In this document: piece by piece, positions 1-57,900 of the stretch
Numbering within the stretch: position 1 is the stretch's first letter
Layout of the letters: the number at the start of each line of letters is the position of its first letter
DNA from: Heterotrichella gracilis
Taxonomy: Eukaryota; Sar; Xanthophyceae; Tribonematales; Xanthonemataceae
DNA: 64,000 nucleotides
Assembly (NCBI GenBank): GCA_032358255.1
Contig: JAULBX010012433.1
Coordinates: 1 to 64,000 of the forward strand
Direction of reading: 5' to 3'
Position numbers and translations under genes: made by a program
Notes under the pieces: model-generated
Seen by the model: the letters and a program-made list of their open reading frames with translations, nothing else
Databases searched by the model: none
What the model was told of the DNA's origin: nothing

Positions 1-288
1 TAGGAAGCCGATCGTCTGATAAACGTCCTAAATGTCCCAACCAGCTTAGCCTAATGTCCCTGAGTTTGTCACTTATGGTTGATACTAAATGCCCTTTCAT
101 GAAGTTATGAGGCACGGGCAATGGGCTCCAAAGTGTTTCGACCATTTGACCTTAATTCAATTGTGTTGGGATTCGCATGAGGGCCCACATGGTATGATGT
201 GATTGACCAGCCTTCTGTATCCTGTGCAGGTGGCCCAACCCTAAACCCTAAACCCTAAACCCTAAACAGCCTTCTGTATCCTGTGCAG
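1..288. other. Intron sequence upstream of first visible exon
   Basis: No coding exon was found here. It is most simply the intron before the exon starting at 289, whose upstream exons lie outside the window. It holds a direct duplication of the acceptor region and a telomere-like tract, described separately. Confidence 0.5.
239..267. repeat. Telomere-like (CCCTAAA)4 tract between two acceptor copies
   Basis: Four perfect CCCTAAA units followed by C. A 31-base segment containing the polypyrimidine stretch, the CAG acceptor and the first ten exon bases occurs identically at 209-239 and 268-298, so the tract sits exactly between the two copies. The second copy leads into the open exon. The first is cut off by the repeat. 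Confidence 0.95.
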
Positions 289-3200
289 GTGGCCCAACAG
301 GCTGCCAAGGCAGAGGCAGAAGCACAGGATGCCGCCGCCCAATCCACCGGAGGCCTCATGCATCGGTCGAAGAGCCTCCCCATGGGCGCCGCTCGCCCCG
401 ACACCAACGCCGACCGCCTGCCCCAAGCATCATCCCTACCCCTAGGCACATCGGCCACTTGGCCCTCGGCACAACCCACATGTTCTACATCACTGGTGCC
501 CAAGAGGCCAACCTCCAGCTATAAGCCAGCCACGCCCAGTTTGCCAAATCCCGCACCGACGCCGCTGGCGTCGGCGGCGGCGCACGCGGCGCGGGCGCTG
601 CAATCCCCGGCGGCCACCGACACATCATCCCTGCCCAGGTCCTCCTCCTTGCAGGCTGGGAATCGCGCCCCTGTCAGCCAAACGCAGGCTGCGGCACTGC
701 TGCTGCCCAAGACCACGTCCCTTCCGGAGGGTTTTTCTTCTGGGATCAGACCTGCGCCAGTGGCCCATGGAAACCTGCAGCGGGTGGCGTCGGTCCCCAC
801 TGGTACCTCAGGTGAGTTGCATGCGACAGCCTGGTCCCTGATCCAGATGTGTCACTTACATTGCACGCCCTCAATTGTTTTCCCCTCTTTTTGAAGGCAA
901 CAGGATGAATACTCGCTCATTCATCCAGTAGGCCAAAATCACGTCAGCTAAAACAAATGAAAATATGGGCTTACATGATCACAATGACAAAAAAATGCTT
1001 CCAAGCCACGCACCGACTCATGCACATCATTGTGATGGAGTAGCCCGTTTTTCGAGTCCACTACTCATGAAGAAAGGCAACAACAACGGCAACAAAGCAA
1101 TAGTAACACCCTAAACCCTAAACTTGCTGCTCCCTCAGGTGCAAATCCCCGGGAGCGCCTGTCGCTGACGGGGCACCAGCATGGCGCACCAATTACCCTA
1201 ACCCCCAAACCCTAAACTTGCTGCTCCCTCAGGTTCAAATCCCCAGGAGCGCCTGTCTCTGACGGGCCATCAGCAAGGCGCACCAGCAGCCCCCAGTGGA
1301 CACGCGGGGCCGCCCTCGGGGCCGGATGCCATGCGCCGCCCCGGCTACGAGCCTGTTAGTGATGTGCATGTCCCGCCGTACAAGGGCGTGTTTTTCATCG
1401 GCTACGATCCGCAGGTAATTGCACATGGCATTCATTTCCATACCCATGCCAATAGGCTCTAATCCCTGGGATCTCGCTCCCTCTTGTTCCTCGCACCATC
1501 ACTCTGCTTTGCTCCCTCACCCCTGATTATTATCCACCACCTGGTTCCACGACGAAGTATCGTCAAAATATCTTCTTTTTGGGGCCAAATACCTGTACGG
1601 AACCAAGTGTTTCAATCTTTTCTTTTCCAGCAGGATCCTCCTGTCATCCACAGCCTGCTACAGCGGGTGGCAAGGTTTAAGTTGGGGCGGGACCACCAGC
1701 CGCACCCCCACACCACCCGCTACATTCTCGTCAACCCAGCCACCACCAAAATTCACAAACCAAATGACAAGACATCATAAAAACTTTCCTTTTCAGCGAA
1801 TACTAAGTATCTAATATTATTCTTCCCCAGCAGGATCCTGTCATCCATAGCCTGCTGCAATGAGTGGTAAGGTTGGCCTGGGGTTGCACCACCTGCTGCA
1901 CCCCGACACCAACCGCTGCATGCTCATTAACCCAGCCAGCTCCTCAAAAAAGTTAGCAGTGTCAGGACAAATGCAGAGGGGATTCTAATGTAGCAAATTT
2001 TAAATAGTGCCGTGTTTCCCCTGCAGGACCCTGTCATCCACAGCCTGCTGCAGCGGGTGGCGAGGTTCAACGTGGGCCTGGACCACCAGCCGCACCCCGA
2101 CACCACCCACTACGTGGTCATCAACCCAGCCAGCGCCAAGCATGGGCTGGAGACTATGGGTAACCTCATCCGCATCAGGGACTGGCTGCTCGAGCCGCGC
2201 CACCACGTGAGGTTCTTCCTGGGCTACAAACTGCTGGAGTCGATGGACAGGTGCGATGTGATTTACTGTTGTTAAATTATCAAATGTTACAAGCATGTGA
2301 TTCACTGGCGTTTAATTATTTGTACGTTTGCATGCATGCAAATGCATGATGTAGTGGTCTGTGTTGTAGGGTTGCTATATGCTATACCGGTGGGGGCTTA
2401 CGCGCTTTGCTGGATGTTGCACATGCTGGGGTCACCGGGACACACCCGGTCATGCCACCAGCCTTCGATTGAAAATTCATCTTGTTTGGATCTTACTGGT
2501 TTTGCTTGCAGGGCCAAGCAGCATTGCAACCTCGGGTCATGCAGTGGCCATGCCCCAGCTGTGAGCTGGAACCTGCTGAGCTGTCATTCAAAACACCAAA
2601 CAGAAATCTGAACATCTCAAGATTGTACGTAACTGAAGGTGGTTGTTTTCATAAAGTGAAGATGTTGTCTTGCAGGCCCAAGGAGAGCATCGCTGACCGC
2701 CACCTGAAGGATGCGATGCAGGAGCGGCACTCGAGAGCCTTGACCAGAACAAATCATTTTTCTGTTGCTGCGGCCATTTTAAACCTGTCATGTAATGTTA
2801 CCAAGTATTGAGTGCAATCCAAAACCCTTTGGGTTGCAGGGCTAAGGAGAACATCGCTGACCGCCACCTCTCCCTAAGTGATGGTCAGATGGAGCAAAAC
2901 CTGGGGCCAAGCTTCAACGGCCCTTTTCCATTATTGTGTAACTATTGATTAACTGCTTATCAACAGTTGAATAAACATCTTACAATGTTCGTTATTGAAG
3001 GTGACTGTTTTTATTGAAACCGAAGAGGTATGCCGTGCAGGGCCAATGAGAACATCGCTGACCGCCACCTATTCCTGGGGGATGCGTTGCCGGATCGAAA
3101 CCTCCGTGCAGGCGAGAGGATGGGCACCGGGGCGCTGGTGGTGGTGGATGCAATGTCCCTGAAAGAGGAAGATGACATCGTCCTAGTGCAGGTGGGGCCG

Positions 3201-4353
3201 ATGGGACTCATGAGGGTCTCTCTCTCTCTTCTCTTCTCCACAGTCTCCTTGAATGGTGTGCATCGGCCAATGAAATGAGGTTGCACTCACTGCGGTGGCA
3301 TTCACCACAATTCAGGATTTGAAGGTATTTCAGGTATTTCAGAATGTATTTTTGGTCCTCGATTTGTGGTGCATTTTTCCTAAAACGTCTTCACAACTTG
3401 CAGGTGATTGAGGGTCTGGTGGAGTGCCAGCGCAGCACCTCTATGGGGTGGAAATGGCGCATCAAGATGCGGCGCGCGGATGTGGAGGAGCGCTTTGGGC
3501 CCAACTCGCGCCTGGCCCAGACGTTTGTGCGCTACCCCAAGCACGTGAAGGACATCAAGGCCTCCGACTGTAGCTCCAGCGCCCCCAGGGACATTGTGCG
3601 CACCGCTGTCAAGCTGCTGTGGTTGCACATGATCAAGTGCAGGTGAGGGGGGTAACTCTAGTGTAATGTAAAATCGGCTTTGAAAAATGTGGGTGAATTT
3701 CTGCGCGCTCTGCGGTTTGTGGCCGCCTTATGGATGCAAACATGGGCCATTTTGAGGTCAAGGCCAGCCAGTGCAGGTCCAGTGATCCCCTGGGGACGTT
3801 GTGCGCACCGCTGTAAAGCTGCACATGATCAAATGCAGGTGAGAGGGGGGTACCGTAGCGTAACTATATTGGTCTTTAAAAAAGTGGTGAATTTCTGTGT
3901 GCTGAGCGGATTGGCGCCGCCATGTCTTGATGCATATGTGATGCAAATATGGGCTATGCAAGGTCGTTTCCAGAGAGTGCAGTTCCACCCCTCAAGGACA
4001 TTGTGCGCATTGGTGTCAAGCTGCTGTGGCTGCACAAAATGAAATGCAGGTAGGGGGGGATACCAGAGTGTGACGAATAAGTGCCTGCAGTGTAAGGACA
4101 TCGCCTAAACTCCCAAAAAGCAACGTAGTGCGTCTTACCTGTACCTACAGTGTGGCATGTTGCATTTGCTCCCGCCAGCTACCTTTTCACTCTCCCTTGC
4201 AGGTATTTGGTCCTAGCCAGCAACAGCAAGAGCGTGCTGACAGAAGCCGCCAGCCAAAACACCATCCTGCATGCCAGGACCAGCACCGAACTGGTGGCGG
4301 TGATGCGGCGCGTGAAACACGCGATGGAGCGGGGCTGGGTCAAGCGGCATTGA
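289..4353 (+). CDS. Unrecognised protein, 3' part (489 codons visible)
   Basis: Six exons join in one frame: 289-811, 1233-1414, 2027-2250, 3041-3191, 3404-3642 and 4203-4353, ending in TGA. The first begins at an acceptor, so the gene starts outside the window. Residues 1-174 are low complexity, rich in Ala, Pro and Ser, with about five copies of an SLPxG-type motif (KSLPMG, SSLPLG, TSLPEG, SVPTG). The rest looks globular: a YKGVFFIGYDPQ block, a segment with HYVVINPASAKHGLETMGN, then basic helical stretches ending in MERGWVKRH. I do not recognise the fold or family. Introns 2, 3 and 5, and the 3' flank, contain degenerate copies of the adjacent exon edges. The downstream neighbour, topoisomerase III, is convergent. 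Exon choice is supported by matching phases at all five junctions; the function is unknown. Confidence 0.8.
1112..1232 (+). repeat. Acceptor-side duplication with CCCTAAA tract
   Basis: The acceptor and about 52 exon bases of the exon starting at 1233 are present upstream at about 1116-1190. They are followed by a CCCTAA-type tract (1193-1216) and then by the functional acceptor. Both copies are preceded by CCCTAAACTTGCTGCTCC, so the repeat unit includes telomere-like sequence, intron end and exon start. Confidence 0.9.
1628..1945 (+). repeat. Two degenerate upstream copies of the exon at 2027
   Basis: About 1630-1760 reads as a near-complete open copy (…VIHSLLQRVARFKLGRDHQ…). About 1830-1945 is a more decayed copy with an in-frame stop. 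Both keep a CAG acceptor just before the homologous start. The functional exon is taken as 2027-2250 because only it continues to a good donor in phase. Confidence 0.88.
2670..2910 (+). repeat. Two truncated copies of the exon at 3041
   Basis: Segments at about 2675-2740 and 2838-2905 each start with CAG plus the homologue of the ENIADRHL coding segment and then diverge. They lie in tandem upstream of the functional exon. A third, very weak match begins near 2511. Confidence 0.85.
3765..4055 (+). repeat. Two donor-side copies of the exon ending at 3642
   Basis: About 3780-3845 and 3995-4055 repeat the last 40-50 bases of the exon (CGCACCGCTGTCAAGCTGCT type) with the AG|GT donor and the first intron bases (gtgagggggg). 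Here the duplication covers the donor side instead of the acceptor side. Confidence 0.85.
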
Positions 4354-5823
4354 CACACCGATAGGCTTTTGGGTTGGAAACCCTCAACCCTAAACGGCGC
4401 GTGAAGCAGGCCATGGAGCGGGGCTGGGTCAAGCGGCATTGACTGTGGCACGCCCAAAGGTTTTGAGATGGAAACCCTAAACCCCTATGGGGCGGAAGAG
4501 CTGTCAGGGGCAGGGAGCGCCAGTGGGCCACTGGGGATGTGAGGTGGTGCCATGCGGGGATGCGGTGCCAATTGGGGATATGAGGGTGGGGGCTTGCCCT
4601 TGGCTCAAGTCATGATCGCCTCGACAGGAGCCTCAGGGTGGGTGGGGTGTGGGTTGCTCCTCCTACAACTTTTTAATTTTACAGGGGTGAAGCTTCAAAT
4701 AATAGAGTGTCACTGCAACAATGACCTGTGGTAGTCTTTTTCCCCCCTTGTTCGTGTTTGGAGCAATAGCAATGATACATTATTTATTGGAAGCCGATTG
4801 GGTAGTGTGCGCATTGAATGTTCACATTTCAATGCCCACTTCTTCATCTTTCATTTCAAACTTGTCCCTCCACCAAATATAGGCTGAACTGGGCTGAATC
4901 GGCTTTCCTGCCAAATACTTGAGTTTGAACTGACGTTTGCTTCTTATTGAATACTTATTTCGTAGATTTGTTAGATTCCTTCAAGTGTGTATCAAGCTTT
5001 TGCTGTCTAAACGATGCACACGTGAACTGCAGATCTCATGCGCCCTTACCACCCGGTGAGTCATGTACTAGTAATGTTGGTAGTAAGGGACAATGGGACA
5101 GTCATGGTGATCCGGTCATGTTAACACTGTCCAGACACCAACGTTAAGACAATGAGATTGCATTGCTTACGGGCGTGACATTGTACAATGCTGAGGAGCT
5201 TGAATCACCAACAGCGTTATACAGATGTCTACTCTGTAGGAGGTTACTCTAGACTAGGTGAATGAAGAGGACGTTGTAACACTTCTTGTCATATACATAA
5301 TTGCATGCACATGTTACTAACCTAGGTATAAATATGCTGGAAGTGTGCGTTTTGTCGTGTCATGTATTTATGTGTAGTCATGGGGAAAACATGCCCAGTC
5401 ACAGTTACCAGGCATGCAAACATTAGCAGAAAATTGCGCGGACAGATGAATTAATCTGCCAAGGGGTCACATAGACTTGTAAGGCAGACTCTCTGAGACA
5501 TTAGCAGAAAAACGCGCAGAATTGAACAAAATCAGACCAAGAATGCTCCTACCAGGCATGAAGGACACTGCGTTTTCAACTTCCACTCTGGTCACGATCG
5601 CTGGAAAAAAAAAAAGCCAAATACCATACATAAAACTTGTAGTGCCGTTGACGTAGGCATGGGCGGCCATCTTTCTTGTGCTGAATAAATGGTCACATCA
5701 GAGTTGGGAGTAAGTCATCGTACCCAAGAATGTAACTTGATGCTAATGCAAAAGCTATGACTGCTGCCCTCCACACGGAGGAGACTGATAAGCTTACTGC
5801 ATTGGCGACATCTGATGGCTGAT
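4354..5823. other. Convergent intergenic region
   Basis: Apart from the copied terminal segment at its left end, I see no gene. It would hold the 3' UTRs and poly(A) signals of the two convergent genes. Confidence 0.5.
4378..4490 (+). repeat. Copy of the terminal coding segment after the stop codon
   Basis: The last 15 codons plus stop of the upstream gene are repeated at 4396-4443 (one substitution in the peptide, MERGWVKRH unchanged). The copies are separated and followed by AACCCTAAAC telomere-like pieces. It lies in the presumed 3' UTR, so it does not change the protein. Confidence 0.9.
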
Positions 5824-8800: not shown

Positions 8801-11800
8801 CAAAAAAAATGGTATGCACAGGTTAATTTCACAACAACGAATGTGATTGTAGCTAATCCAAAATGGATTACAACACGCACTTGAGCAGCAGGGTTGCCCC
8901 GCACAGTGGGCAGGGGCATATTTCCTCCCCAGGACCGCCGGCATCGCGCTGACCACCGCCGCCCCCTGCAGGAGTCACACACACCAATTCTGGTCTCAGA
9001 ATTGCTTGCAATAATGTAATCAGAGCTCTCTTCGTTTGTGGCTGAATTTGAATTCCCAGCCATTTGGTCCAAACGCGTGCGTTTTCGCCCCTTTCTACCC
9101 AGGGGAGCAGGCCAATTTAGGCCAATCAATAGCACAGATTTGGTTTGTCTGTGTTTACATTATAAACTATTCCTGTTACCAGATGTCATTCACTATTCGT
9201 ATTAACCATGTACATGTTGTGTTACCTGTGGCCATGTACCAAATGGCAGGCAAACCAGCAGGACCTGCACTCACACAGGATGCAGAGGCTGGTGCTAGGC
9301 AGCCATGCAGCCCTCACCTGTTGCCCTGTTAAGGAATTGACCAACCTCTTGTACCATGAGCTGGGAGCGCTGGGTGGCTGAGGCAAAGTCTGCTTCAAAT
9401 GCGCGGATGGCCTCATCTAACACGCTCGCCTGGGGTGAATGGAACAGACTTTAGCCCAAGGTTGGCCAGGTAGGAGGCAAATCGCGGCAGCAGGCAATGC
9501 ACTACCTCGCCGATTGAACCCTTGTAGGGTTTTGGGTTCGTGTGCTGGTGTGCACATGCAGCCTTGTAGGGCTTGTGCGGTGGTGCTCGTGCGGTGATGT
9601 GCACTTGCGGCATTGAGTGGCCCAGTGCCCACATTGCTTTCCAGCAGTGATTCGAAAGGCGCCAACAGTCATTAAGCCAGCTCCACTACATGCATACCCC
9701 GATTTATGTTGTGGTTGCGATCCCCAGGCTGGCACCCCTACCCCCTCTATCAGCCCACCCACCCAAGGATAATAAAATAATAAATAGGACTATTACAATC
9801 TTCTTATGGGTAAAAATATTACCCTTGACCCACCTTGGTCCGCTGGCCACGCGCCACCCCCGTAATGGCCACCTCGATCTTGGCCCTCAGATCAGGCAAC
9901 CACAGATTCTCCAGATCCATTTTCCTGTATGCCGCAATGAGCGCCTCACCGAGCAGGGTGGGCCTAAATCGCAGGTTTTCGTCCTTTATCGCGTAGCCAC
10001 GCTCCAGCATGGTCTTGATGTGCGAGGCCACTGTGGCGTCTGTACCTATGCCGTGGCGCTCCATCTGTGAGATGAGGTCGGCCTCGGAGAGGAGGTCAGG
10101 GGGGCGGGTGCAGCCCTGCGGTCAGATGAGATTATATGTCACATGGGAACACAATTTTGGTGTCTATAGTTCATGAGTGTTGATGCAGTATTACTCTTTA
10201 TCTTTACAGACTGGAGCCTATGCCGTGGCGCTCCATCTGGGAGATGAAGTCGGCCTCGGAGAGGAGGTCAGGCGGGCGGATGGTGCCCTCCGGGGTTTAG
10301 GTTTCAAGATTTAGGGTTGAACCCTGGGCTGAGGGTTTAAGCCTTCTTTGTTGGTAGTGCTCATGTTGAGTGCGCATTGATACAGCTTTGCTGCGCAAGC
10401 AGGGGTGCTTGGCCCGCTCCCAGGGGTGCATCCTTACCCTCACAAGGGTTTTGTGCTCTTATTGCACCACCTCACCAAGGGTTTCATTCACCTCCCTCAG
10501 CACCAGCTCCTGCAGCATGAAGGTCTGCCCCTCCTGGAACCGAGGAAGCGCATCGCTGGACATGCGCCCACCGCTCCCAAGGGTAAACCCGTCAACCCTA
10601 AAACCCTAAACTCTCAATTTGGATTTTCTGCAGGTACCCGACAAGGGTTTCACTCACCTCCTTCAGCACCAGCTCCTGCGGCATGAAGGTCTGCCCCTCC
10701 TGGAACCGAGGAAGCGCATCACTGGACTGGCCCCACCTGTCCCAGTGGTACACATCCAGCCAGTTGCGCTCAAGCACCATGAGGCCGGTGGCAGAGAACG
10801 TTTCATCGGAGATGCTGACACGTGCGTTGCTGCGGGCGCCCACCGCAGGAAGCGAGCAGGCGCTGCAGGGTGGGGGTAGCAGGGGTTCAGGTGCTGAGAA
10901 GGTGGGAGGTTGGTGCACGGTGGCAAGAGATGGGATTGGGGCAGGTTTTGTAATAGAAAGGGAGTCGGAGGTGCGGGCACGTGCATGCTGTTTGTGTGAA
11001 GGGGGTAAGTAGTGTGGTGGATTCGCATGGCTATGCAGCATAACTATTATTTCAGCGTATTGTAAACACCATCAACCAAGAGTATTTGTCCCTCGCCCCT
11101 ACTGGCCACAAGCTGACAATAATACAGGGCAGCAGAGGTCGATGCCTTCAGGTTTAGGCACGTACGCAAGGAAGGAGCGCACGACAAATTCATACAGCTG
11201 CTTCTTGTCGTGGTGCCAGTCAGCCTCCCCAGGGGAGTAGCGGGTGGGGTGGATAGGAGGATGGGCCTTGTCGTCATTGCCCCCCCCTCGAGGCCAGTTG
11301 AACCCCCCGTTCAGCAGGTGCTGCGCGTATGCGCCCCACCTGGGGTCCCCGGCTTGCTCCTCCACCATGCCCTGGGATGGGATCATGGGGTGATTGCATG
11401 AAATTTTAGATCCGAGATGTGACCACAGTCACCACACTTAATAATGGCATCGTTTATGATTTATTGGACATTTTGAGCGGATTTTGCATGCATGTAATCT
11501 CCAAGTGCATTGCAATCCGCAGCAACACCACAATCCAACCCTTCCGTAATGTTGTATGCTGGGTTCGTGCCATCTGGGGCATGATGTTCCAATGCTGGAA
11601 ATGGCATAGAATGTATGCCTTTTCCAGCCTTGGGACATAAATATGCATAATATTGGCAAATGGGCAGGATGGGCAAGCGCTACCATGAAACCACAATTTT
11701 GGCATACAAGCGCTCACCCTGAGGTCCATGTTGGGGTCAAAGCTGTCGGTCTCAGTGCGCGGGTAGCTCAGGTACCCAGCCTGGTACAGCTCCTCCGCCA

Positions 11801-14228
11801 GCGTCATGATGCGCTCACCTGGCAAGCACACCATCATCTCAGTAACTGACCACCGCAAAAAAATGGCACAAAATGGGGAGAAAACATTAGGATGGTGGGT
11901 TGGGACAGCAGGAAGGAAGGTAATCCCCGGCCTGCTGTAAATCCTCGACACACCTGCACAATTTGCCACCTACCCCTGCTGCCATGGTCCTGCTAGCAGG
12001 TTGGTTCTTCTGCTGGCCTGGCTGGAGCACACGTGCTGGCACCAAACTGCCAAGTGCATGAAAATATCATATCTTCACAAATTTAGATGTGCTAGCAGGT
12101 TCTGGCTTTGCTCCCTGGAATGCAGGTAGCTACACTAACATCCACCCATGCGCCTCACCAGGTATGCGCAGCAGGGCGGCGCACGCTTGTGCAAGGCTGA
12201 TTGCTGATCTGGCTTTCATGCAGAATGCATGTAGTTGTAATAGAAGATGACAATAATGCGCCTCACCAGGTATGCGCAGCAGGCGCGTGCCCTTCTTCTG
12301 CATCTCGAGATCCAGGGTGTGCTCAGCATGCGCCGGAGTGCAGGCGAATGGCGTTGCTTTTATGCAGTTGAGGATTGACGCTGTGTGGGGATCCGGGAGT
12401 AAAAACCGAGGATCATGTATTTGCTGGCAGCTTAGCCAGCGCGTGTCTGCCTAGGGGCAACTAACTACACTAACATCCACCTATGCGCCTCACCAGGTAT
12501 GCGCAGCAGGCGCGTGCCCCTCTTCTGCATCTCCAGGGTGCTCAGCGGGTGCGGGGGCTGGCGCAGCTCCTGGCGCCCACTCACATGCACCACCGTGGCC
12601 AGCGGGCTGTCCACGCACATCTCGTACAGGGTGATGGCCACGTCACGGTCAAACATGTGGCCCCGGTCCCATTTGAATTCCACGGATTTCTTTTCCTCGG
12701 GGTCCCGGTACGTGACGTGGATGTACCAGAACTCCTCCCGAAAGTGGGATTCAATGAGCCTGCATGGGGTTGACGCAAACACAGAGAGTTAAAATATGTG
12801 TTGCTGATGGGAGCCTAGGAGCATCTAGGACAGCATCATGGGATGTGTCAGATGTATAGAGTCAGATTTGATGAGCCTGCAAAACGGGCATGTGCTTGGG
12901 ATTGGATGTGGGGCAAAACAATATGTGAAAAAAACGAATTGCTCAGCATTGATATTTACGAGGACTGATTAGATGTTTCTGGAGCATCACAATGCCAAAG
13001 CCTTGATTAGTTGCCAATTGGTAAATGTACTGTGAGTTGGGAGGCACTTCAGCCGAGCAGCCAACACCAGGGACGCATGAGCGGGCAATCACATGATCAT
13101 CATACCATACATACAAACATGTTTAATCTGCATTACGTACCAGCGCCGCATGACGATCAGCCCAAGGGTAGGGAACTGGCATGGCCCGTAGCTGAGGAGC
13201 TTCCGCTTGTCTTCCTCTGACGTGTCAAAGTCAAACTTGCTCTGCAAGAGCAAGGTCTGATACCGGGTGAATGACGCCCCGATCCTCAGGTCGATTTCTT
13301 GCCTAGCTTCCACGGCCTCAGATTCGGCTCTGTTGGGTTGTTGCAGCTGTGCCATGGCTCGTTGGAGGTCACGTGCTATGAGTGCTGAGAACCGTGCTCT
13401 CTTGACCTCCATGCGGGGGTTGACCTTAGTGCACACCTCAATCACCTGCAAGGAGCCATGCGATTTTCCTATTACATGCTCCTTGTATAACACAGAACCA
13501 GGTGAAGTTTCAAGCAAGGGCCAATGCAGCAGTGGGTACAGTTGGCACACACTGTGATCGTTTACGTTTTGCTGCCAGAAAATCCAAGCAAAACCCACCT
13601 CAAATGCAATGTTCTCTCCTTCCCTGTCACAATCCAGCCACAGGACCAGCCATTGCGCACTGCGTGCCTGCTGCTCAAGGTTCCTTTCTAATTGCCGGTT
13701 GCGCTGCAGCATACAATTCTAGTCAGCAGGTTGCAAGGTGTGGAACGTGGGCTGGGCATCTTGATCTATACTAAGCTATGCGCACTGCATTGTTACACCC
13801 AATTTTACCTCTGGGACGAATCTACGTATTGGCAGGCTGTAAAGTTCAGACGGTGAGCAAGCATGCCACTTCCTGTACTGCTCTGGAAAGTCCACTTCCA
13901 TGAGGTGTCCTGACACTGATGTGAACACCATCTCTGACGGCCCAGGGAACCCGGTGATGTTGTAGTCGAAAAAGTACAGTGGATTGTACATAGAGCTGCA
14001 GGGAACAACTCCAACGCTCAGCTCATGTTCAGCCACTTCTTGTGAGATCCCAGGGGAAGAAATGGATGAGCGCTAGCCCATGCATGCATATGAGAATGTC
14101 AAAAAAAAGCCAAAGCAAACTCACCAGCTCTGTTCCTGACGAGCTGTTCCATTGCTCAACAACCGTGAGACCTCCTTTGCCACGCTGTTCTTCTCAGCCA
14201 CGTTCAGCACCCGCACCCTTCGTGCCAT
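5824..14228 (-). CDS. TOP3A: DNA topoisomerase III alpha (995 aa, 18 exons)
   Basis: Type IA topoisomerase that, in the RTR complex with a RecQ helicase and RMI1, relaxes negative supercoils and dissolves double Holliday junctions. Exons (genomic): 14228-14125, 13995-13809, 13703-13599, 13445-13141, 12759-12494, 11818-11718, 11371-11166, 10862-10658, 10115-9834, 9429-9318, 8965-8881, 8479-8266, 8160-8082, 7701-7573, 7264-7099, 6859-6728, 6465-6242, 5909-5824. All phases agree. Toprim motifs are present (VLNVAEKN near residue 8; DCDREGEN near 120). The catalytic tyrosine lies in SYPRTET near 340, and HGIGTDAT is conserved. The C-terminus carries a CPCPLCG zinc finger, a second cysteine-rich finger, an acidic RG/GGR-rich linker (about 751-875), a GRF finger (CPMHG…YYKC…QC) and a terminal CCHC knuckle ([14 protein letters not shown]). 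No clear mitochondrial presequence precedes MARRVRV. It is divergent with DNAL4. Three introns carry splice-junction copies. Confidence 0.96.
10218..10330 (-). repeat. Acceptor-side copy of the TOP3A exon 10115-9834
   Basis: About 80 bases match the first part of the exon (coding [16 protein letters not shown]). They lie upstream in the transcript and end in telomere-like variants (GGGTTTAGGTTTCAAGATTTAGGG). An internal GTACAGAC-to-CTGGAGCC type change shows decay. Confidence 0.85.
10460..10615 (-). repeat. Donor-side copy of the TOP3A exon 10862-10658
   Basis: About 100 bases repeat the exon 3' end and donor (coding EGQTFM…QELVL) with a few substitutions. A CCCTAAAACCCTAAAC tract at about 10596-10612 separates this copy from the functional exon. 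Confidence 0.9.
12119..12345 (-). repeat. Two donor-side copies of the TOP3A exon 12759-12494
   Basis: The exon end and donor (GCGCCTCACCAGGTATGCGC on the + strand) occur three times: at the functional exon, at about 12257-12345 and at about 12151-12185. The flanking intron piece (CTACACTAACATCCACC) is copied too, so the duplications span the junction. Confidence 0.9.
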
Positions 14229-17688: not shown

Positions 17689-18254
17689 GGCTTGTGAAGT
17701 TTGGAGTGGGAATCGGCGTCTTTCAAAGACTACTTGGTTGATCAGCAACGCTCGTGTAAGGTTGCCGTAGCAGTTGCAGCCTCTCTGCTGTTGTATGATA
17801 CACGATGAGCCAGGTATGACCCTCTAGTTCACAAGGACCCCCTGCATTATCGACTGCACTCATACAAGAACGCTACATAATAGTGCAGCCATGCTTGCAC
17901 GTTCGCCACTAGTGGGCTTCCGGTCCATTTGTGATGTCACCTGTGCACGGTTATATTGTAGGCACCTCCAGTACATCTCTTTATTCACATGCCGTCTGCA
18001 AGTCACGCCATACGCGCCCATAGAACGAAACCTTGTCGTGCTACTGGTGCATGCATCCAGCTGTCTTTACCGGAAGTTTACATTCACGTCGTTGAGCTTT
18101 GTTGAAAGAAACGAAAAGAAAAACGAAAAGAAAAACGAAAAGACATGGCCTAACATGGCATATGCATGCATTGATGCATGCATGCATCCTAATTAGGATT
18201 CCCACTGCACACCCAAGAGAGGTGGGAGGCATGTACTAACCACTCCCGGAGGCA
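17689..18254. promoter_or_regulatory. Divergent promoter region
   Basis: 566 bases between the Ycf21-like and glycosyltransferase starts. It includes a purine tract made of three AAACGAAAAGA-type 11-base units (about 18105-18143), followed by a TGCATGCA-rich stretch (about 18163-18187). No core promoter can be assigned. Confidence 0.4.
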
Positions 18255-45900: not shown

Positions 45901-48900
45901 TGGCCCATGAGGTCCTCAGTGGTACACCAACACTGGGTAGGCTTCGACAGGGGTATGCTTGTAGCGCGTACCCCCTGTCAAGCCTGCCCATTCTTGGAGT
46001 ATCACAGTAGCCCCCATGGGCAAAGCGCACAGGCCCATCATTACTGCGTGATAGCTGATGCAATGGCGGAGTATGCAGGACACATGCCCACTGCAGGACA
46101 TATGCCCACTGGGGTGGCCTTGCTGGTGGACATGGAGCTGTTCTTTGTAAACAAGGTATGCAGGGGGGGATAATCTGTTCCTTGCACAAATTGGGGTAGC
46201 AACTTTCCGATAGCTAGAGCGCATGTGATACGAATTTCACATCACCAGTGCATTCCGGCACAACATTGGCAATGCAATCGTACCTTGTCACTGATCTCCT
46301 TCCCCTCCTCATACCCAGTTCCATAGGCAGCCCTGGCCTCCCCAGCCAGCTGCCCCGCGGTCTGCATGGCGCTCTGCACAGCACTGGTAGCCGCGCCCCA
46401 CACGCGCTGGGTCAAGCCCTGCCCGGTCTGCACCCCCTGCCCTGCCACCTCAGCACCCTTCTCAACTGTCTGCCGTGCGGTGGCGGCTGTCTGCCCCGCC
46501 ACCTGCCCTCCCTTCTCAAGTGCCTGCTGGCCGTACTGCTGTGCGGTGACGGCTGTGGTGCCAGCAACCTCACCACGCTTCTCCACTGCCTGCTGGCCGT
46601 ACTGCTGCGCAGTGGCGGCGGTCTGCCCCGCCACCTGCCCACCCTTCTCAAGGGCTTGCTGGCCGTACTGCTGTGCGGTGCCCACAGCAGATCCAGCCAC
46701 TTCACCCCCCTTCTGCAGAGCCTGCTGACCGTACTCGCCTGCCTGCTGGGTAATACCCTGTGCCCCCTCCGCCGCCTGCTGACCCACACCCTGTGCGTAC
46801 CCACCAGCCTGCTGACCATACTCCCCTGCCTGCTGAGCCACACCCTGCGCACCCTCCACTGCCTGCTGGCCCACACCCTGCGCACCCTGCTGCGCCTGGT
46901 GACCATACTCCCCTGCCTGCTGTCCCGTCCCCTGCTGCTGCTGACCGGGAGGGCACACCACACCCTTGGCGGTCTCGATGCCAGCGCCAATTGCCTGGCG
47001 ACCCATCTCCACCGCCTGCTGGCCAATCCCCATCACCCCTGCACGCAACAAAGCATACTTATATCTTTTTTGCTACATTTCCTACTGCTGGAAATGGGGG
47101 TTGCATCACCCATCTTGCAGCTGGGTGATGCCGGAGTGGCTGCAAATATACCTTGTGACCCAGCCCTAAGGTCCAGCCCTAAACTTCAAAAACCTATGCC
47201 ATAAACCCTAAGCCTCAAACCCTATGGTAGGGGGAACAGTGGACAGGTGGGCACTACCAATGCCGTTCTGAGCTCAATCCTCCTCCTTAATCAACACGCG
47301 CTTGTTCGAGGACAGGCTGCGCTCTAGTTGAGGACGAGGTTGGAGCTTAGAAGGGCAATGGCGGTGCCCTCCTGAGATGTTTACCAATTTTGAACTCCAA
47401 CTCTTCACCATAAACCCTCGCTCCTACACAAATCAACAACCAGACTCAGATCAAAACTCAAAAAGGGTATTTACCTTGTCCCAAAGGCCTAGCTCTAAAC
47501 CCTAAAACCCCTACCTGGTCCGCCCAGGCCCTGCATCCCCCCCTCCTGCGCGCTCACGATCCTGGGCTGGGCATGCCCCACCACCTCCTGCTGCGTGATG
47601 CCGGGGTGGCTGGGCATAACCCCCACCGCCTCCCTCCCATACTCCTTTGCCTGCTGACCGGCCCCAGCCACTGTGTCGTATGCCCCTTGGACATACTCCG
47701 CTGCCTGCTGCGCCACTCCCTGCGCTCCCTCCACTGCCTGCTGGCCATACCCCTTGGCCTGCTGGGCAGCGGCTGAGGCGTACTCGCCTGCCTGCTGGGA
47801 GATGTCGTGGGCACCCTGGAGGGTCTGCTGGCCTGCGGGTGATGGAAAGCATATGTCAGGCCTCAAACCCTAAACCCTAGCCTCAGAGATTAGTGTGATG
47901 TCTCACTGGGTTATTTGTGGAAGCTAGTGATGGAGAGCCACCCGCAGCAAAAACTGTTTAGTGTTTAGGGTTTAAACCATGAACCCTAAACCCCAAACCC
48001 TAAACAGACAATTGAAGACAAAGGCGTGCATGAGGCGGCATGAGGACAACGCATAGCTCCCATGAAAAAGGCATTCGAGGAAACAATCACTCAGAGGGGG
48101 GAATGCGGTGGCGGAGGGGGCAATGTCAGGAAAGCGGATGGGGGTTGGAAAGGGGGCGGGTGATGTTGGGGGGTTGTAGTGCAATTGCACAGGGAAATGT
48201 CATCAGAAGGACTGGACATTAGCAGCACGGCTATAAGATAAGAGGTAAGCCACCTTTGAGCATGACAACTTGTCTTGAAGAGAACAATGTATTTACAGCA
48301 CATGGTTACCTTGTGATACCGAGGTAGCAGAAAGGAGCATCTAACGCATTATAATGAAGCGGTACAAATTACTATGTACAAATTACTACGTACACACCTT
48401 GCCCTTGTAGTTTGTATGGGAGTGTTGTAGTGCAGCCTATCCTTTGCTATTCGGCTGTATCCTTGGTTAAAACCAATATTTAGTCGACAACAAGAAAGCA
48501 GACGAACAGCTTTGGATAGGGTGCACTACAATTCTCCCACACACATTCCCGCCTCAACCATCTCTTTCTTAGACCTGCCCTGCAAACCCTACACCCTACA
48601 TCCTCAAACCCTGAAGTGCTGTGTGCTACCTAGTCCCCCACTCTACACCCTACACCCTAAAACCCCAAACCCAGACCCTAAACCTCAAGGATGGAAAGTA
48701 TATTCTTACCTGTCTGCTGGAACTGCCCTGCAACCTGCTGGGGCTGGCCTCCTGGCTGCTGTCTAGCTCCCCCACCTGCACCGCATGTGGAATGAAACCA
48801 TTCAGGGTTTTGAGTGTAGGGTTTAGGGTTAGGGTTTAGGGTAATTCAGGGGCGAGTTGCAGGTGGGGGGGTGGCCAACGCCTCTCGAGGTGACGAGGAA

Positions 48901-51900
48901 CATGTATGAACCATTTTGCGGTTACTGAGCAGCATGTTCATCACCACACTAAGCAAACTGCTGTTAAGACACCCTCCCCCACCTGCAACAAATGTGAATA
49001 ATCAGCCTCATGAGCATTTGTGGAACATGCTGAAAAGTGGAATGATGCGATTAACATCAAATGCAAAATTTGCGCCTACAACACACATGCAGCCACACAT
49101 CGCAAAGGGCAATTGGTAGCATGATTGCGACTGAAATGAAGACCAGGAACGCAGTAATGAACCTCCTTGCTAGAGCAAGAGGCTGTCAACATTGAAGGGT
49201 CAAAAATATCATTGTGGACCATCCAAAGCAGACACGGAGGATGGGCATATCGGAGGATATTGGGTGAAAGGGTCCTGCACCTAGTCAGCCCCTACATCTA
49301 GGTCTGGTACTGCGATGTATCACCAGTTGTCTAGCCTCTTTGCTAGTAAATTTCATGGTGGGGGCTGCTAGACATGTCTGGGGACAATACAGAGCTGAAG
49401 TTTGAGGTATATAGCGAGCTCTTGCAGCCTTCAGTGCCATCAAACTTGACCATGTGGGAGAAGGATAGTTAACAGTACAGGATTGAGAGTGGCTATATAC
49501 CTATGCCTTGAGCTCTGTATAATCCCCAGCCAAGCCTTGCATCCCTCCCTTCTGTCCTATCCCCATCCACTATCCTACTGGATTTTAACCAACCCCTTCA
49601 CCTAACACCCTCCAAGCAACCTGCAACTCTCTCTACCCATAAATACTCGTCTATCTGCCAACAAACCACACAGTACCTCGCACACTTTGAGAGGGAAGGG
49701 AGCAAGACAAAGGAACAGTTGATGGACAAGAACACCCCAGAATACTGTGACAGAAATGCCTGCACACACCTGTACCAGGCATTGCCTACTTCCCCTGCAA
49801 TAAAACCCTAAGCACTAGCCCTAAACTGCAACCCTAAACTCCACGACAACAATAGCAGCCATGCTCGAAACACACCTGTGCCAGGCATTGCCCACTTCCC
49901 CTACTAGAACACCCCAAACCCCAAGTCCTAAACTGCAACCCTAAACTTCATGACAACAATAGCAGCAGTACTTGCTAACACACACACCTGTGCCAGGCAT
50001 TGCCTACTTCCCCTACGAGAAAACCCCAAACCCTAAGTCCTAAACTGCAACCCTAAACTCCATGACAACATTAGCAGCAGTACTCGCTAACACACACACC
50101 TGTGCCAGGCATTGCCTGCTGAGCCTGCTGCCCCGCTCCCTGTGCCCACTCCCCTGCCTGCTGCCCAGCACCCTTGACACCCTCTGCTGCCTGCTGGGCC
50201 ACACCCTGTGCACCCTGGTACAGCTGCTGACCTGCATGCGTGATAGGGACATGTGAGGCAGGCAAAATGCTAGCTGAGTGTACTCACGTCGATACCAACA
50301 GTCAAGTCTGTGTTCATGTTTATGTCTGACAACGGCCAATTCCATCTGTGTGTTCATGTCTGACTGAGTACTAAGTAGTACTGGATAGATTTGTAATTAG
50401 TATGACAACTAAACAGTACTGGATACATTTGTAGTCGGTAGTATTAGCCCCCCTGGTGAATCCATGGCACATATATGAGCTCAGCTGGTGCGTCATCATC
50501 AGCTGCTGTATTATTTTTAAAAAATAATATGCTTGTATTCTTATATGCTCATGTCAGCCAGATCTTTCTTACCTGTCCCAACAGTCCCCTGAGGTGCCTG
50601 CTGACCATACTCCCCTGCCTGCTGAGCCACACCCTGGGCGCCCTGATACCCCTTCTCCCCCGCTGACTGCACAGCGCCCATACCAGACCCTGCAACACCC
50701 TGCGCCTCAGCTGGGTAGGGTGCAGTGCGTGCTTCCTCAGCCGCCTGCTTCCCCTTCTGGACAGACCCTGTTGCGAGATGGGATGTTTGGGTCAAAAGTC
50801 TGTGCTATTTTGTGGAATGGTAGAGTAGTGGGTGATATTTCCCCGACTCCCCAAGTTGATATGCATTGGTTGACAGTTTTGTCATTATCCAGGCTAACAT
50901 TGGAAGGCAAATGCAAGGGATGATAATGAAGGATTAACATCTTCATCAATGCGCACAGTCCATTCAAGTTGATTTGCACTGCCAGAGTGGAGAAAAACAA
51001 ACATATATACAGCACCAGAACCATGGGGTGTGTGGGGAGGCACACTGTGTTGTGTGGATGGGGGGGAGGGGGGGGGGAGGGGGTGACAAGGTAAGGAGCA
51101 ACCACCCATGCATGCATGGTTGTGGTACGTACCCTTCAGGAAGCCAGGCACATCCACTGTATGGGCCACAAACCCAACCCAAAGTTTATTTTAAAATGTA
51201 CTTCTCTATATTGCAAATGTCCCATTATCACACACGCACATTTGTGGCGTTTGTGCACGTACCCTTGAGGAAGCCAGGCACATAGCCATACGCGGTGTGG
51301 GCCACAGACCCCACCCCAGAATCCACAGCATCCTTGATCTGGTCCAGGCTGCTCTTCTCAACGTCGAATGGCTGCTGAGCTGCCTTGAGTGGAGGGATGT
51401 GCTCCACCGCGCTGTCAAGGATTGGCTGGGCCACGGCTTCAAATGCATGCCTTGACTCTGCAAAACATTGAGATTGTGTCAGTGCAAACGCTACCTTACC
51501 CTTTCAAGTATGCCATCAACTGGCACTGTCAGTGATGGACGTGCAAATGTTTCTGCATGGTACAGGGTTCCTCTCTGTAAACAAATACATGATTGTATGT
51601 GCATGGTGGGATATTGTGCACGTGGGATTAAAAAATGCATAACGACGTTCCTCATCTCAAGAATTGAGGGCGTTGGTTGAGGAAGCGATAGAACGACAGA
51701 GAGCCAACCTCTGAGGCTGGCTTTAACACTACGTGTGTTCCACAGCACCGGCCAGGAGGGGCTGCACCACGGTTTCAAATGCGTGCCAGGACTCTGCAAA
51801 TTTGTCGAGGCTAGATGCACTTGAGCCTGCGCAGTGCCTCATCCAAAGCACCGGTAAAACATGCAGGGGGAATGAGTGCCCACCAGGTGTCAAGGTTGGG

Positions 51901-54900
51901 CCGCTCACGCACCCAGTACGTTCCGCCGCAACTTTGGATGAAAAGATGCGCAGGCTCAAGCGTATCTGGCCAAAACACTGGCATAAGCTGTAATATCCTG
52001 ACTATATGGTAGCTCCAAAATAGAGTACCCAGTGCAGGATTGATCAAGTAACATACGCATGCGCTACAATTAGAATAGCAGACGCGTGCACGTTCATAAG
52101 TCAGGCATGCGCATATGGGCACCTATAAAATAATCATTTGCCAACATGCCCACGGGCAGGCGCCATACAGTAATGTGGATGCTCACATTATTGTACTCTA
52201 CCAAAACCCTAACCCAAAACCCTAACCAGACATACCGCTGTAGGAGTCAATTGACCTCTCCAGGCCCTGCTCCACCAGCTTCCCAGTGGTGATGGCAGCT
52301 GCCTCCCCTGCTCCCCTTGCATACTCCACTGCGGCGCCGGTGTACTCCACCGCCTTCTCCGCACCCTTGCGGGGCACCTCAACCGCCACACCTGCAATGA
52401 AAGTGACAAGTTGCAATCAGGTGCAGGAAGCCCTTATTCAATCAAAATAACTAAAAACTCCTGGCTCTGCAATTTAACAACCTTTCCAAGGCAACATAAT
52501 GAGCATAAAGTCCGCTCGGTCCCGCAACCACCGATCATTTCTCATTATGTTACATAGATGCAATTGTATTACAAGCAATGTGGCCATGAGCAGTACTGAT
52601 GTTGCAGAAGACTCCCAAAAATAAACTGCAGAAGCTTCGGAGACCCATGTAGCCAGCCTTGAGGACAACATGGTGACCATTGTGAGGAAGGGGCACAACT
52701 AAACCCTAAACCCTTAGGTATAACACCCAAAGAACGCATAATCACAGCCACATTCGAGCCTACCTGCAGCGATGCCAGCATACTCTGCCGGCTTGGTCAC
52801 CGCAGCATGCATGGCAGACTGGGCCACCTGGGTGCCCGTCTCCACAGCCTTGTACCCAAACTGCTGTGCAGTCTGCACCGCCTGGCCCGCCTTCTGTGCA
52901 CCAAGTTCCACGACCTGCTGACCATACTCGAATGCCTGCTGGCCGTACTGCTGCGCAGTGCCCACTGTCTGCCCCGCCACCTCAGCACCCTTCTGAAGGG
53001 TTTTCTGGCCATACTGCTGTGCGGTGGCTGCGGTCTGCCCAGATATCTCAGCACCCTTCTCAAGGGCTTTCTGGCTGTACTGCTGTGTAGTTGCGGCTGT
53101 CTGCCCCGCCACCTCAGCGCCCTTCTCAAGCGCCTGCTGGCCATACTGCTGTGCAGTAGCGGCTTTGGTGCCAGCCACCTCAGCACCCTTCTCAAGGGCT
53201 TGCTGACCATACTGCTGTGTAGTGGCGGCTGTCTGCCCCGCCACCTCACCGCCCTTCTCCAAAGATTGCTGGCCGTACTGCTGTGCAGTCCCCATAGTCT
53301 GGCCAGCGGCCTGGCCGCCCTGCTGCATTGCCTGCTGGCCATACTGCTGCGCAGCGCCAACCGCACCACCCACAACTTCTGCACCCTCCCCAGCCGCCTG
53401 CTGGCCATACTTGCCTGCCTGCTGAGCCACTCCCTGGGCCCCCTCCGCCGCCTGCTGACCCACACCCTGTGCGTACCCACCAGCCTGCTGACCAATGCCC
53501 TGGTCATACTCCACTGCCTGCTGACCCGCACCGTGCTGCTGCTGACCTGGAGCAGGGCACACCACACCCTTGCCAGTCTCAATGCCTGCGCCAACCACCT
53601 GACGACCCATCTCCATCGCCTGCTGGCCGATCCCTGCCCCCTGCTGCGCCACACCCTGGGTGCCCTGCTGTGCCTGCTGCGCCATGCCCTGTGCAATCTG
53701 TGATGCCTGCTGCCCAGTCTCCTTCAGTCCCTGGGCTCCATGCTGAGCTGTCTCGGAAACAGCCTCCCCGGCTTGGTTGACGGCATCGCCTGCGCATGCG
53801 GACAACAAGTGGTAGAGTGCAATTTACGGCACTGCATTTTGCATGACCCGTACTTTTGTAAGTAATCTGCATTTTTGGCAGTAAAATTGTCTTGCGTGTG
53901 CAGCAGCATTGCAGCACGGCAAGCTTGCATACACGATAGTTTGCTTATACCCAACACTGTTTGGAAAGTAATCACCATGGAGACAAGCAATGTACTATTT
54001 AATTAATGTGCTACAGGTGCAATGACATACTCTCCACCTTTGAAGGGGAACCATTTTCAGTTGATATGTTGTACAACAGGAGGAAAAGCGGCATGCCATG
54101 GACGGGGTCATTGTAAAGCCAATGTCACAGTGCGCCGTGTAAGTCACGTACCATGTTTGCTCAGCTGCTACCCGCTACAGCTTAAATTACACATGCTCAC
54201 ATGGATAATGTTAGCAGTATGACGGACCAACTCATCAACATCGTATGTGACTTTCCAGGTGCACATTGACATTGGCTTTATAAAGGGCCCCTCCATGCCA
54301 CATTTGGTGATGCATAGCGTTGGCAAGGCGTAAAAACACATGATTACTGTGGTGCTTATGATGACCCACCACCCCAATTACGGCAAGTGACATCCCATAG
54401 CAATATAGTGGGGTGGGTGTGGTACATGACTGATTTGGCAATTATTTTAACCATAACACCATTACTCCTGAAGGGATGCAGTTAAGGATACAGTGGCCAT
54501 GCAGCCTGGTGTGATATTTGCGGAAGTGGAAGAAGGCCAGTACACTGTCAGTGGAAGAACCCACTTGGTCTAGCCTTGTTCAGCTTCAACAAAAGCCACA
54601 CCGAGACATGCTGTATGGCCAGCTGCAACCTCCAAAATATCACTTCCACGCAAAACTTCTTCATTTACTTTAGAAGTTACGCACAAATACCATCCCTGGC
54701 CGCCATCTGGGAACTACGGCGTACCTGCTTGGCCCAAGGAGGGCACATACTGCTGGAAGGACCCCACCATGCGGGACACCAGCCCGCGTCCAGCCTCCAA
54801 CCCTTCACGGGTGCTGCTACCCCACTCGGGCTGGATCAGGCTCTCGCCCTTGGGCGCCTGGCTCCACTCCGCCTCCATCCCTGCAGCCTGCTCACGGCCG

Positions 54901-57900
54901 CGCTGGAAGGCATCGGAGGCGGTCTCCAGGGCAGCATCACCGTACTGCTGTGCTGCACCAGCCACCTGAGGAAGAAATGCATGTTGTAAGATGTTGAGGT
55001 GACGCAATGTCGGCCCACTTTGATTGTATTGGTAATATCCTAAAGGGGTTCTGCTAACAGAGCACAAGAAATGATAAAAAGGGGCCGAAAAATGAGGGAT
55101 AAGTAGACAAGAAAAGTCCCAAGGAATAATGTTCAATTCTTTGAGTCAACGAGGCAGAGAATTGACAATATTGTTTGCCCTCTTGCTTGTCTACTCCTTC
55201 ATTGCTTTTCCGCCATTCTCTCATTTCTTGTGTGCTGTTAGCAAATCCAATTACCAGACAAGTTGCCAACACAATCAGACATCAAGAGGCAGACGCAAGG
55301 ACAAACAGCGGAGTAACCAGCACAAGTCACTGGATGAAGAAAGGCTTTGCTTAGCAGGACAGATGCAAGGGGCCCCTGAGACAGAATGCACGTGCATCTT
55401 CCCACCTGGCCAGTTGCCATAGCAGCAGTATCAGTGACTGGCTGGAGGTAAGGCTCAACTGTACCGGCAGCAACGCCTGCGGTACCCGCCACCACATTGG
55501 CAGTAGCCTCAAACGCGCGCTGGCCTGCAGGAACATAATAATTAAGTAAGCTCTAGTTACTAAAATATAGGCCACTGAAAATTAAATATGCAATCTCCCA
55601 CTGTACTGAAATATTTTTCCACAGGAAAGTGATAAACAAATCCCAACACAACCCGATGCACATGGTAATTCAAGAGACCTTGCAGCCAGGCACATCAGGT
55701 TAGCTACACATGTGATGTTTACGCAATTAGGCTTTACGCAGTTCGCCTTGATTGAATACATATGTCAGAGGGTGCCAACAGTTAAAGAAGTTACGTTATT
55801 GTGCTGGCCCGCCCATGGCATGTAGAGACAACTTGTAGGCTACTATCTCCACCTGGCTGTGGTGCAAAACGCATGTCACTAATTCCTCGCATGCATGCAA
55901 AGCCAACATTTGGCTTAGCACCACACCACTGTTTCAACTGTGCCTTGAATTGCATGGTAAGTACATTATGTGTATGATACACATGCAGCCTCTCGTTGCA
56001 ATCAACCCTTGGCTTGGCAACACATACGTGCTTCAACTGCGCCTGAAAGCGCATACTAAGTGCATTTTATACGCTGCCCACCCATTGCAAAACATGCAAA
56101 CAATAGGTTTTTCCCAGTAATTCAGTACATTTCCAAAAATGCATATGTAATCAACCCTTGCCTTGGCATCACGCACCTGTCTCAGCTGTGCCTTGGAGTG
56201 CTTGCTGAGCCAGCCCAGTCACTCCCGGACCCTCTGGGCACACCAACTCCTTGGCTCCCTCAATGCCTGAGATTGCGCCCTCGCGGCCGTACTCTTTTGC
56301 CTGCTGTCCAGCAGCCTGGACTCCCTCCGCTGCCTGCTGGGCCACGTCCTGTGCACCCTGGTACAGCTGCTGACCTGCATGCGTGGCATGTGTGTGAGGC
56401 AGATAGCTCTACATCCACACTAGATTACGCAATACTGACATGAACCCTGAAGATTTTAGATACATTTAAATGGACAGGGGGGTTATTGCCAATTACAAAT
56501 GCCATTCAAGAACAGGCTGCACAGTACTTCGATATCTGCAAGTTGGAAAAATCTGGAACAGGCACAACAAGTCAGTGTGAGGCACGTCAATACCAATGGC
56601 CAGGTGGTGTGTTGCTCTTACCTGTTTCAGCAACGCCCTCAGCGGCCTGCTGGCCATACCCCACTGCCTGCTGCCCAACACTCTTGACACCCTCCGCTGC
56701 CTGCTGGGCCACACCCTGTGTACCCTGGTACAGCTGCTGACCTGCATGCGTGACGAAAAAAGATGCAGGGAGACAGTTGTTAGTTGTGGAGATATAAGAC
56801 AGGAACACAATGCTTTCTATTATGCTAATGCATTTATCCCATCGACAAGCATGTCTACAGAACCAAAGCATTTCTCTAACAAGGCCTGGGAATTGATGCT
56901 AAACCCTGACCGGAACCCTAAAGTGCGCACTGTCATTACTGTATGACATACAGAAATGACATACAGTAATGACAGTGCGCAACTTCAGGGTTCCAATTAG
57001 GGTTAAACAGTTTAGGGAAACTGTTTGTTACATTGCAACTTGGATACATACATTGTTCCAGACAATTTCCAGGCCTGTTAGCAATTTTATACTCAAACAT
57101 ATATATCTATGTAACTCATTTGTGCTGCCAAAGAACGACAAGGCAGGGACAACGATAGAAGGTGCACCAAATTCATTAGGCCCTGTAAGCCATTCATACT
57201 ATTTCATGCGACACTCTTACCTGTTTCAGCAGCACCTTGCGCAGCCTGCTGGCCATACTCTATTGCCTGCCGCCCAGCACCCTGAACACCCTCCGCTGCC
57301 TGCTGGGCCACGCCCTGTGCACCCTGCAGCGCCTGCTGACCATACTCCCCTGCCTACTGGGCCACGCCTTGGCCGCTCTGGTACAGCTGCTGACCTGCAT
57401 GCGTAGACGATGTGAGAAAGACATATCCACCACAAGTTGCACAATGTGGGGTGGGACACCACTGATATCACTGTCACAGGAGGGTTACCCATATATAGAT
57501 AAGTAGAAAGGAATGGTGCATGGTGGGTTCAACAATCCAAGTCAACATCACCGACATGATAACATACACATTGCGTGACATCTTGAATGGCAACCTTACC
57601 AGTCTCAGCAGTACCCTGTGCTGCCTGCTGACCATAGCCGCTGGCCTTCTGAGCCACGCCCTGCGCCCCCTCCACTGCCTGCTGGCCCACGCCCTGCAAA
57701 CCCTCCGCTGCCTGCTGACCAGCCTCCCCTGCCTGCTGCCCCGCACCCTGCTGCTGCTGGCCTGGAGAGCACACCACCCCCTTGGCTGTCTCCAGGCCTG
57801 AGTCAACCACCTGGCGAAGCTTGTCCAGTGCAGGCTGGCCTACGCCCTGCACACCCTGCTGCGCCTGGGCAGGGGCTCCTCCTGCACCGTTCCTCACTAC

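Follow-up and report, generated by a model that had tools for sequence, protein, structure and literature searches.

Short interstitial telomeric sequences of mammalian genomes are inserted at double-strand breaks, and telomerase has been proposed to take part (Nergadze et al. 2007, PMC2246262); target duplications accompany 6 of 130 telomeric insertions in rodents and 4 of 25 in primates (PMC2246262). It is also established that fill-in by CST-Pol alpha-primase at breaks with 3′ overhangs gives rise to small tandem duplications (PMC8355091). In Daphnia, introns carry direct repeats derived from staggered breaks, and internal repeats occur in 100 of 617 established introns (PMC4202315). In land plants, telo boxes reach 151 per Mb in the introns of Arabidopsis and 72 per Mb in those of rice (Gaspin et al. 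2010, PMC3022908). For algae, interstitial repeats have been suggested in a Chlamydomonas telomere paper (PMC6549138), and the available parts of that paper and of an Auxenochlorella paper (PMC12633428) describe nothing like the association presented here. The present study concerns a 64,000-nt stretch of Heterotrichella gracilis DNA (assembly GCA_032358255.1, contig JAULBX010012433.1, positions 1 to 64,000), hereafter the window, in which partial copies of exon edges lie next to their sources. An initial annotation, made from the letters of the window, had described these copies as junction duplications produced by a frequent mutational process. It missed that part of the copies are bounded by telomeric repeats, which concentrate strongly near donor splice sites.

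The window (contig C126 of a 68.5-Mb assembly in 903 contigs), whose introns and telomeres show its eukaryotic origin, was analysed together with a comparison sample of 200 kb taken from five other contigs (C2, C3, C8, C9 and C13). Gene models for both came from a self-trained gene finder, with PNPase homology and Pfam matches as outside support for some of them, and contained 486 predicted introns (108 in the window and 378 in the sample) with donor CAG/GTGAGT and acceptor TGCAG/G. Self-alignment of the window for copies at most 1.5 kb apart gave 109 matches, against 0 in three dinucleotide-preserving shuffles. When copies were limited to a distance of 600 bp and overlapping matches were merged, window and sample held 90 pairs, against 0 in shuffles; nine of these, in a protein-coding repeat region (window 46.2-58 kb), were dropped, and 81 were kept, 34 of them in the window. 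The initial annotation had counted at least 25 junction copies in seven of eleven genes, and a load of similar size was recovered: 26 of the 34 window pairs touch a predicted junction (19 an acceptor and 16 a donor, some both), spread over all eight gene units. In a separate test, each intron was searched for a copy of its adjoining exon edge (score of at least 20). Such a copy was present in 58 of the 486 introns. It lay on the donor side in 32 introns and on the acceptor side in 31, compared with 0.04% and 0.08% when partners were exchanged between introns. Duplications are frequent, as had been claimed, and affect both sides about equally. They are denser in the window (24 of 108 introns) than in the sample (34 of 378); the trait is true beyond the window, and the first reading met a rich stretch.

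The PNPase gene, whose identity is backed by alignment to the solved PNPase 4aid, relates these copies to a conserved protein. In the one alignment shown, the match at 34.6-35.0 kb falls once, on exon 34956-35045, which is the fourth and last copy there, and the alignment runs from the end of exon 36101-36253 directly into the start of exon 36808-36963. Because the alignment skips them, the extra copies (three upstream of 34956, and those at 36421-36481 and 36606-36680) lie outside the conserved protein and look like decoys. The intron between the latter two exons (36254-36807) has a donor-side copy as well as acceptor-side copies, a close match to the earlier description of a PNPase exon duplicated on both sides. 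A large intron of the same gene contains, at 37836-38633, three intron-internal copies of a segment of about 80-160 bp, which include neither predicted exon sequence nor a telomeric gap.

Seen directly in the alignments, the prevailing anatomy is a segment X repeated on both sides of a filler (X-filler-X): 60 of the 81 pairs have a gap of more than 10 nt, with a median of 92. In none of the 50 gapped pairs tested did a copy continue into its flanks, a result that is partly expected as alignment ends fall where similarity drops. The other 21 pairs are plain tandems, in some of which a weak similarity extends over a long stretch, and the intron parts decay in both copies. These two features would be accounted for by ordinary slippage or unequal exchange, in which tandem duplications with decayed intron halves are all that is needed. 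We find this unlikely, because 10 of the 14 pairs with at least 85% identity are still gapped, although their middle has probably not had time to decay, and at 36606-36872 the copies are 93% identical, yet a 116-nt middle lies outside the copy. As for the fillers, 8 of 52 match other sampled sequence, itself a small part of the genome, the matches being telomeric or simple repeat, an overlap between sampled stretches or, in one case, coding sequence at a distance of 3 kb; two fillers searched genome-wide are both single-copy. A transposon or an intron-generating element as filler was rejected, there being no dispersed family among the 52 fillers, and the absence of any sign of an element family accords with the earlier remark that no standard element class fits.

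Telomeric tracts were defined as at least three overlapping telomere 7-mers. The window has 43 and the sample 130; shuffling the sample leaves 4, and reversing it gives 24. With the threshold raised to four 7-mers, the number is 138 over 264 kb, about 0.5 per kb or one every 2 kb or so. The unit is directly recognisable as the genome's own telomere unit, contigs C70 and C140 beginning with CCCTAAA arrays, and the genome contains a telomerase reverse-transcriptase domain (PF12009 above cut-off, two stretches on C626). Comparing the 150-nt flanks on each side of a tract, we found that a tract's own flanks are duplicated around it in 41 of 137 cases, against 0.42% of 2402 mismatched flank pairs. 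The corresponding figures for long tracts are 20 of 49 against 0.52% of 959, in a set picked from listed pattern matches and not drawn at random (40 places were hand-picked, and those left out include contig-end arrays such as C70 and C140 as well as matches lower in the list); one place occurs in both sets (L003 and L015). From the side of the duplications, the gap is telomeric in 16 of the 81 pairs, compared with 6.8 expected, so that telomeric filler, present in about a fifth of pairs, explains the smaller part of the duplications. Regarding tract phase, short tracts in window and sample are mostly in the telo-box phase AAACCCTA; among isolated 7-mers, AAACCCT is favoured (82 of 187). Either decay or function may be the cause.

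On balance, we favour the view that the copies are scars of the repair of staggered double-strand breaks, with telomeric repeats added at some of the breaks and later re-duplicated. A staggered break with overhangs of some 25-130 nt would be mended by end joining and the overhang copied on both sides, converting a break site X into X-filler-X. Telomeric filler would most simply be made by telomerase acting on the broken 3′ end, and the resulting tracts may then become the edges of further tandem duplication, giving rise to the arrays in which a segment and an interstitial telomeric sequence (ITS) alternate (X-ITS-X-ITS). In genes, the events that survive would be those leaving one intact junction or stop codon, the serving copy being the first at donors and stop codons and the last at acceptors. 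This agrees with the proposal of the initial annotation that such duplications can be tolerated as one junction stays intact, and the copies do lengthen introns, as it had stated. The breakage itself may be linked to transcription.

Several observations weigh against this account. Clear flank duplication is lacking around 78 of the 137 tracts (score below 14). Of the tracts lying between copies, which number 60 when flank scores of 14-17 are left out, 34 are accompanied by a further telomeric tract beyond the copies (control 5.3% in each search window, with two search windows per tract), and this class supplies 14 of the 16 cases in which the copies are flush with the tract on both sides. These outer tracts imply that whole units of X plus tract were duplicated, and they fit duplication of such a unit around a pre-existing tract equally well as insertion with target duplication; pure target-site duplication for all flush cases is weakened by the same count. 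Of the 26 tracts without an outer tract, at least one is an array member, and just 2 have flush copies on each side. The phase signal expected of telomerase is modest: CCTAAAC forms the end of 26 among 77 long tracts (p = 3e-4), the opposite edge is uneven too (p = 0.011), and short tracts are biased differently. Finally, the concentration of tracts near donors, described below, is not expected from uniform breaks.

The nearest rival puts the tract first. Old telomeric insertions or functional motifs would be fragile, and slippage or breaks at their edges would duplicate the exon edge together with the tract, telomerase being uninvolved in the duplications. Besides the outer tracts and the doubly flush cases, it gains from arrays in which unit and tract repeat together (window 34622-34998, L014 4575-4840 and C75:85517-85827). 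It has more difficulty with the 26 of 60 between-copy tracts that have no outer tract within 30 nt, including the perfectly flush tract at 237-267, and with the 65 of 81 duplications that are without a telomeric gap at the threshold used. We therefore take it as a possible explanation that is less probable than break repair with telomeric addition followed by re-duplication, which remains the likeliest. Arrays of donor plus telomeric tract, with four units each at a spacing of about 75-300 bp, occur at G000:C75:85517-85827 and C48:58268-58882.

The tracts have a marked position preference. Predicted exons are depleted of them (3 against 45.3 expected), and of the 126 tracts in introns 38 are at most 30 nt from a donor, against 9.3% of 7275 uniform positions. 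Donor proximity is found for 17 of 37 tracts with duplicated flanks and 17 of 71 without (p = 2e-4; 18 intermediate tracts with flank scores of 14-17 are left out). On the acceptor side, tracts without flank duplication show no excess (8 of 71 against 10.1%), but those with duplication are in excess (9 of 37, p = 0.01). In a second tract set, 16 of 45 are near donors, against a local control of 17% drawn from those short loci themselves. Genome-wide, the telo box has 717 matches 0-20 nt after the donor consensus (305 on the C strand and 412 on the G strand) and 260 at 100-120 nt (117 and 143), with 217 G-strand matches at 30-50 nt; the reversed-pattern control gives at most 4 matches per strand. 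In these counts overlapping matches and array members are counted separately, and a donor consensus is not the same as a proven donor.

This preference could mean that the donor-side tracts work as intronic signals, either telo boxes or splicing enhancers, and are maintained by selection; telo boxes do act in plant 5′ regions (PMC3022908). We consider this improbable, as both strands are enriched alike after donors though the RNAs would differ. A strand preference is confined to the vicinity of acceptors, where the C strand exceeds the G strand (16 against 4 tracts, and 382 against 274 genome-wide), as expected if TTTAG/GG makes unwanted acceptors. That the two strands are similarly enriched points to a cause at the DNA level on the donor side rather than to an RNA signal. 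The idea that sense CCCTAAA tracts serve as CTAAC-like branch points was rejected as well, since the orientation of tracts within introns is even overall (68 against 60) and only the weak acceptor-side bias remains.

The clustering of tracts after donors might equally be taken as a sign that the copies are made by a process aimed at the junctions, such as reverse splicing, intron-making elements or selection for decoy splice sites. In the self-alignment against random placement, a junction excess does exist: 55 of the 81 pairs span a junction, compared with 40.3 expected, random placement having skipped window 46.2-58 kb, though three observed pairs fall there. The excess is small (1.36-fold), and the idea of a process aimed at splice junctions, as implied initially, is not borne out by it. 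Intron-internal pairs number 9, against 18.8 expected from the same placement of 81 pairs. A junction-seeking process is unneeded if exon-internal events are selected out and copies of conserved exons stay recognisable for longer than faster-decaying copies within introns, which could explain the excess. One copy set (4307-4484) spans a stop codon instead of a splice site, and its first copy can serve there; this case suggests that tolerance, not splicing, is what decides. The equal numbers of donor and acceptor sides and the fillers without a family also speak against an aimed process. Intron gain by AGGT tandem duplication was rejected: none of the 486 introns scores 15 or more for the required geometry, in which the intron start matches the next exon start and the intron end the previous exon end. 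We thus hold an aimed process to be rather improbable, and the splice junction itself need not be the target.

If repair of staggered breaks is the right explanation, thousands of repair events could be read in one genome, each with its strand, its position and the length of its overhang, and this would suffice to test where genic breaks fall and how often telomerase mends them. The junction copies would then account for the growth of introns, and alternative splice sites would arise ready-made from them, with no mobile element involved. The two-strand zone past 5′ splice sites raises the question of transcription- or splicing-linked breakage. More tentatively, and with considerable doubt, telomerase might be a routine filler in genic break repair and breaks might be concentrated just past 5′ splice sites, in which case co-transcriptional breakage would be recorded by thousands of duplicated junctions and, if the density of about 0.5 per kb measured in 264 kb is extrapolated, by tens of thousands of tracts. 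The features of the window are listed in Table 1.

Table 1. Exon-edge copies and telomeric tracts in the window (ITS, interstitial telomeric sequence; X, duplicated segment)
Position	Strand	Feature
209-295	+	X-ITS-X at acceptor; copies of 28 bp, identical (209-236, 268-295), flanking tract 237-267; telomeric tract absent outside
1104-1285	+	Two copies of acceptor and exon start, 91% identical; tracts upstream of each (1108-1123, 1195-1217)
1602-2139	+	Acceptor-exon segment in three copies, spacing about 200
2611-3103	+	Acceptor-side copies; source exon starts near 3041
3555-4080	+	Exon end and donor in three copies; source exon 3404-3642
4307-4484	+	X-ITS-X-ITS across stop codon; tracts 4378-4395 and 4472-4484
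10045-10293	-	Topoisomerase gene, acceptor-side copy, 91% identity, 95-nt filler; outer-edge tract 10293-10318
10476-10753	-	Exon and donor copies flanking tract 10584-10611
12101-12555	-	Topoisomerase gene, donor-side copies
19174-19440	+	Donor-side copy, 41 exon and 28 intron bases; filler 19243-19371 single-copy genome-wide
19673-20031	+	Acceptor-side copy
26600-26905	-	Exon sequence and acceptor copied, tract 26748-26762 between
28349-28938	-	Glycosyltransferase-61-like gene, exon and junction copies
29974-30159	-	Acceptor-side copies flanking tract 30048-30066
34409-34425	+	G-strand telomeric tract, 6 nt past PNPase donor
34622-34998	+	PNPase array: three apparent decoys (acceptor and about 35 exon bases), telomeric tracts between, then real exon 34956-35045
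35582-35979	+	83-bp segment (exon end and donor) in three copies
36212-36872	+	PNPase intron: donor-side copy 36337-36400, acceptor-side copies 36421-36481 and 36606-36680
36912-37163	+	Donor-side copy
39101-39479	+	Four donor-side copies, spacing 98-121
43003-43860	-	Whole exon and both junctions in three copies; may be a true exon duplication
49763-50129	-	Donor-side array with tracts 49803-49839, 49927-49946 and 50028-50058
61625-61873	+	Short-chain dehydrogenase gene, acceptor-side copy

The gene finder gave seven models in the window, one of which was split by hand to yield the eight gene units. In the scanned parts of the window genes, Pfam matches identified a topoisomerase, a glycosyltransferase 61, an amino-acid transporter and a short-chain dehydrogenase. 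Two glycosyltransferase-61-like genes lie on opposite strands (17795-22516 and 23186-31045), one of the two being assigned by likeness; the model at 23186-31045 joins glycosyltransferase and amino-acid transporter, which are probably two genes. A 90-bp tandem array with the motif GTCATCACACC (25359-25567) lies mostly within a predicted intron of the transporter gene. On the minus strand, 46284-57947 encodes a long protein built of 11-residue repeats (DNA units of 33 and 66 nt), a repeat nature assigned by eye, which we presume to be LEA-like. Pfam scans of parts of gene 1 and of a 239-residue part of the 11-residue-repeat protein gave no match, and the window yielded no hit in Rfam and tRNA scans.

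The ingredients of this system are each known. Their load, their co-occurrence with exon-edge copies and the zone past 5′ splice sites were not seen in any report among the open-licence matches listed; likewise, no report of an association between tracts and exon-edge copies in a green alga was found among these, judged by titles and abstract openings. As in the mammalian insertions (PMC2246262), tracts of the telomere unit occupy internal sites and their flanks are changed, including by target duplication. In contrast to those insertions, copies enclose 41 of 137 tracts here (20 of 49 in the long-tract set), with a tract every 2 kb or so. As in the duplications made by CST-Pol alpha-primase (PMC8355091), segments of overhang size are doubled on either side of a break site, here a presumed one, whereas most copies here are separated by filler, and the available main text of that paper does not contain the word telomerase. 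With Daphnia (PMC4202315), H. gracilis has in common direct repeats between intron and adjoining exon, but the Daphnia exon-intron repeats measure 4-12 bp and mark new introns, while those found here are mostly far longer and lack an intron-gain signature. Direct repeats at intron borders were likewise described by Rogers and Bendich (2025, PMC11782384), but these are 4-30 bp long and were read as traces of intron insertion. Lastly, the motif AAACCCTA and its scarcity in coding sequence are shared with the telo boxes of land plants (PMC3022908); unlike them, the motif reaches 1083 per Mb in predicted introns here, lies near donors and is tied to duplications.

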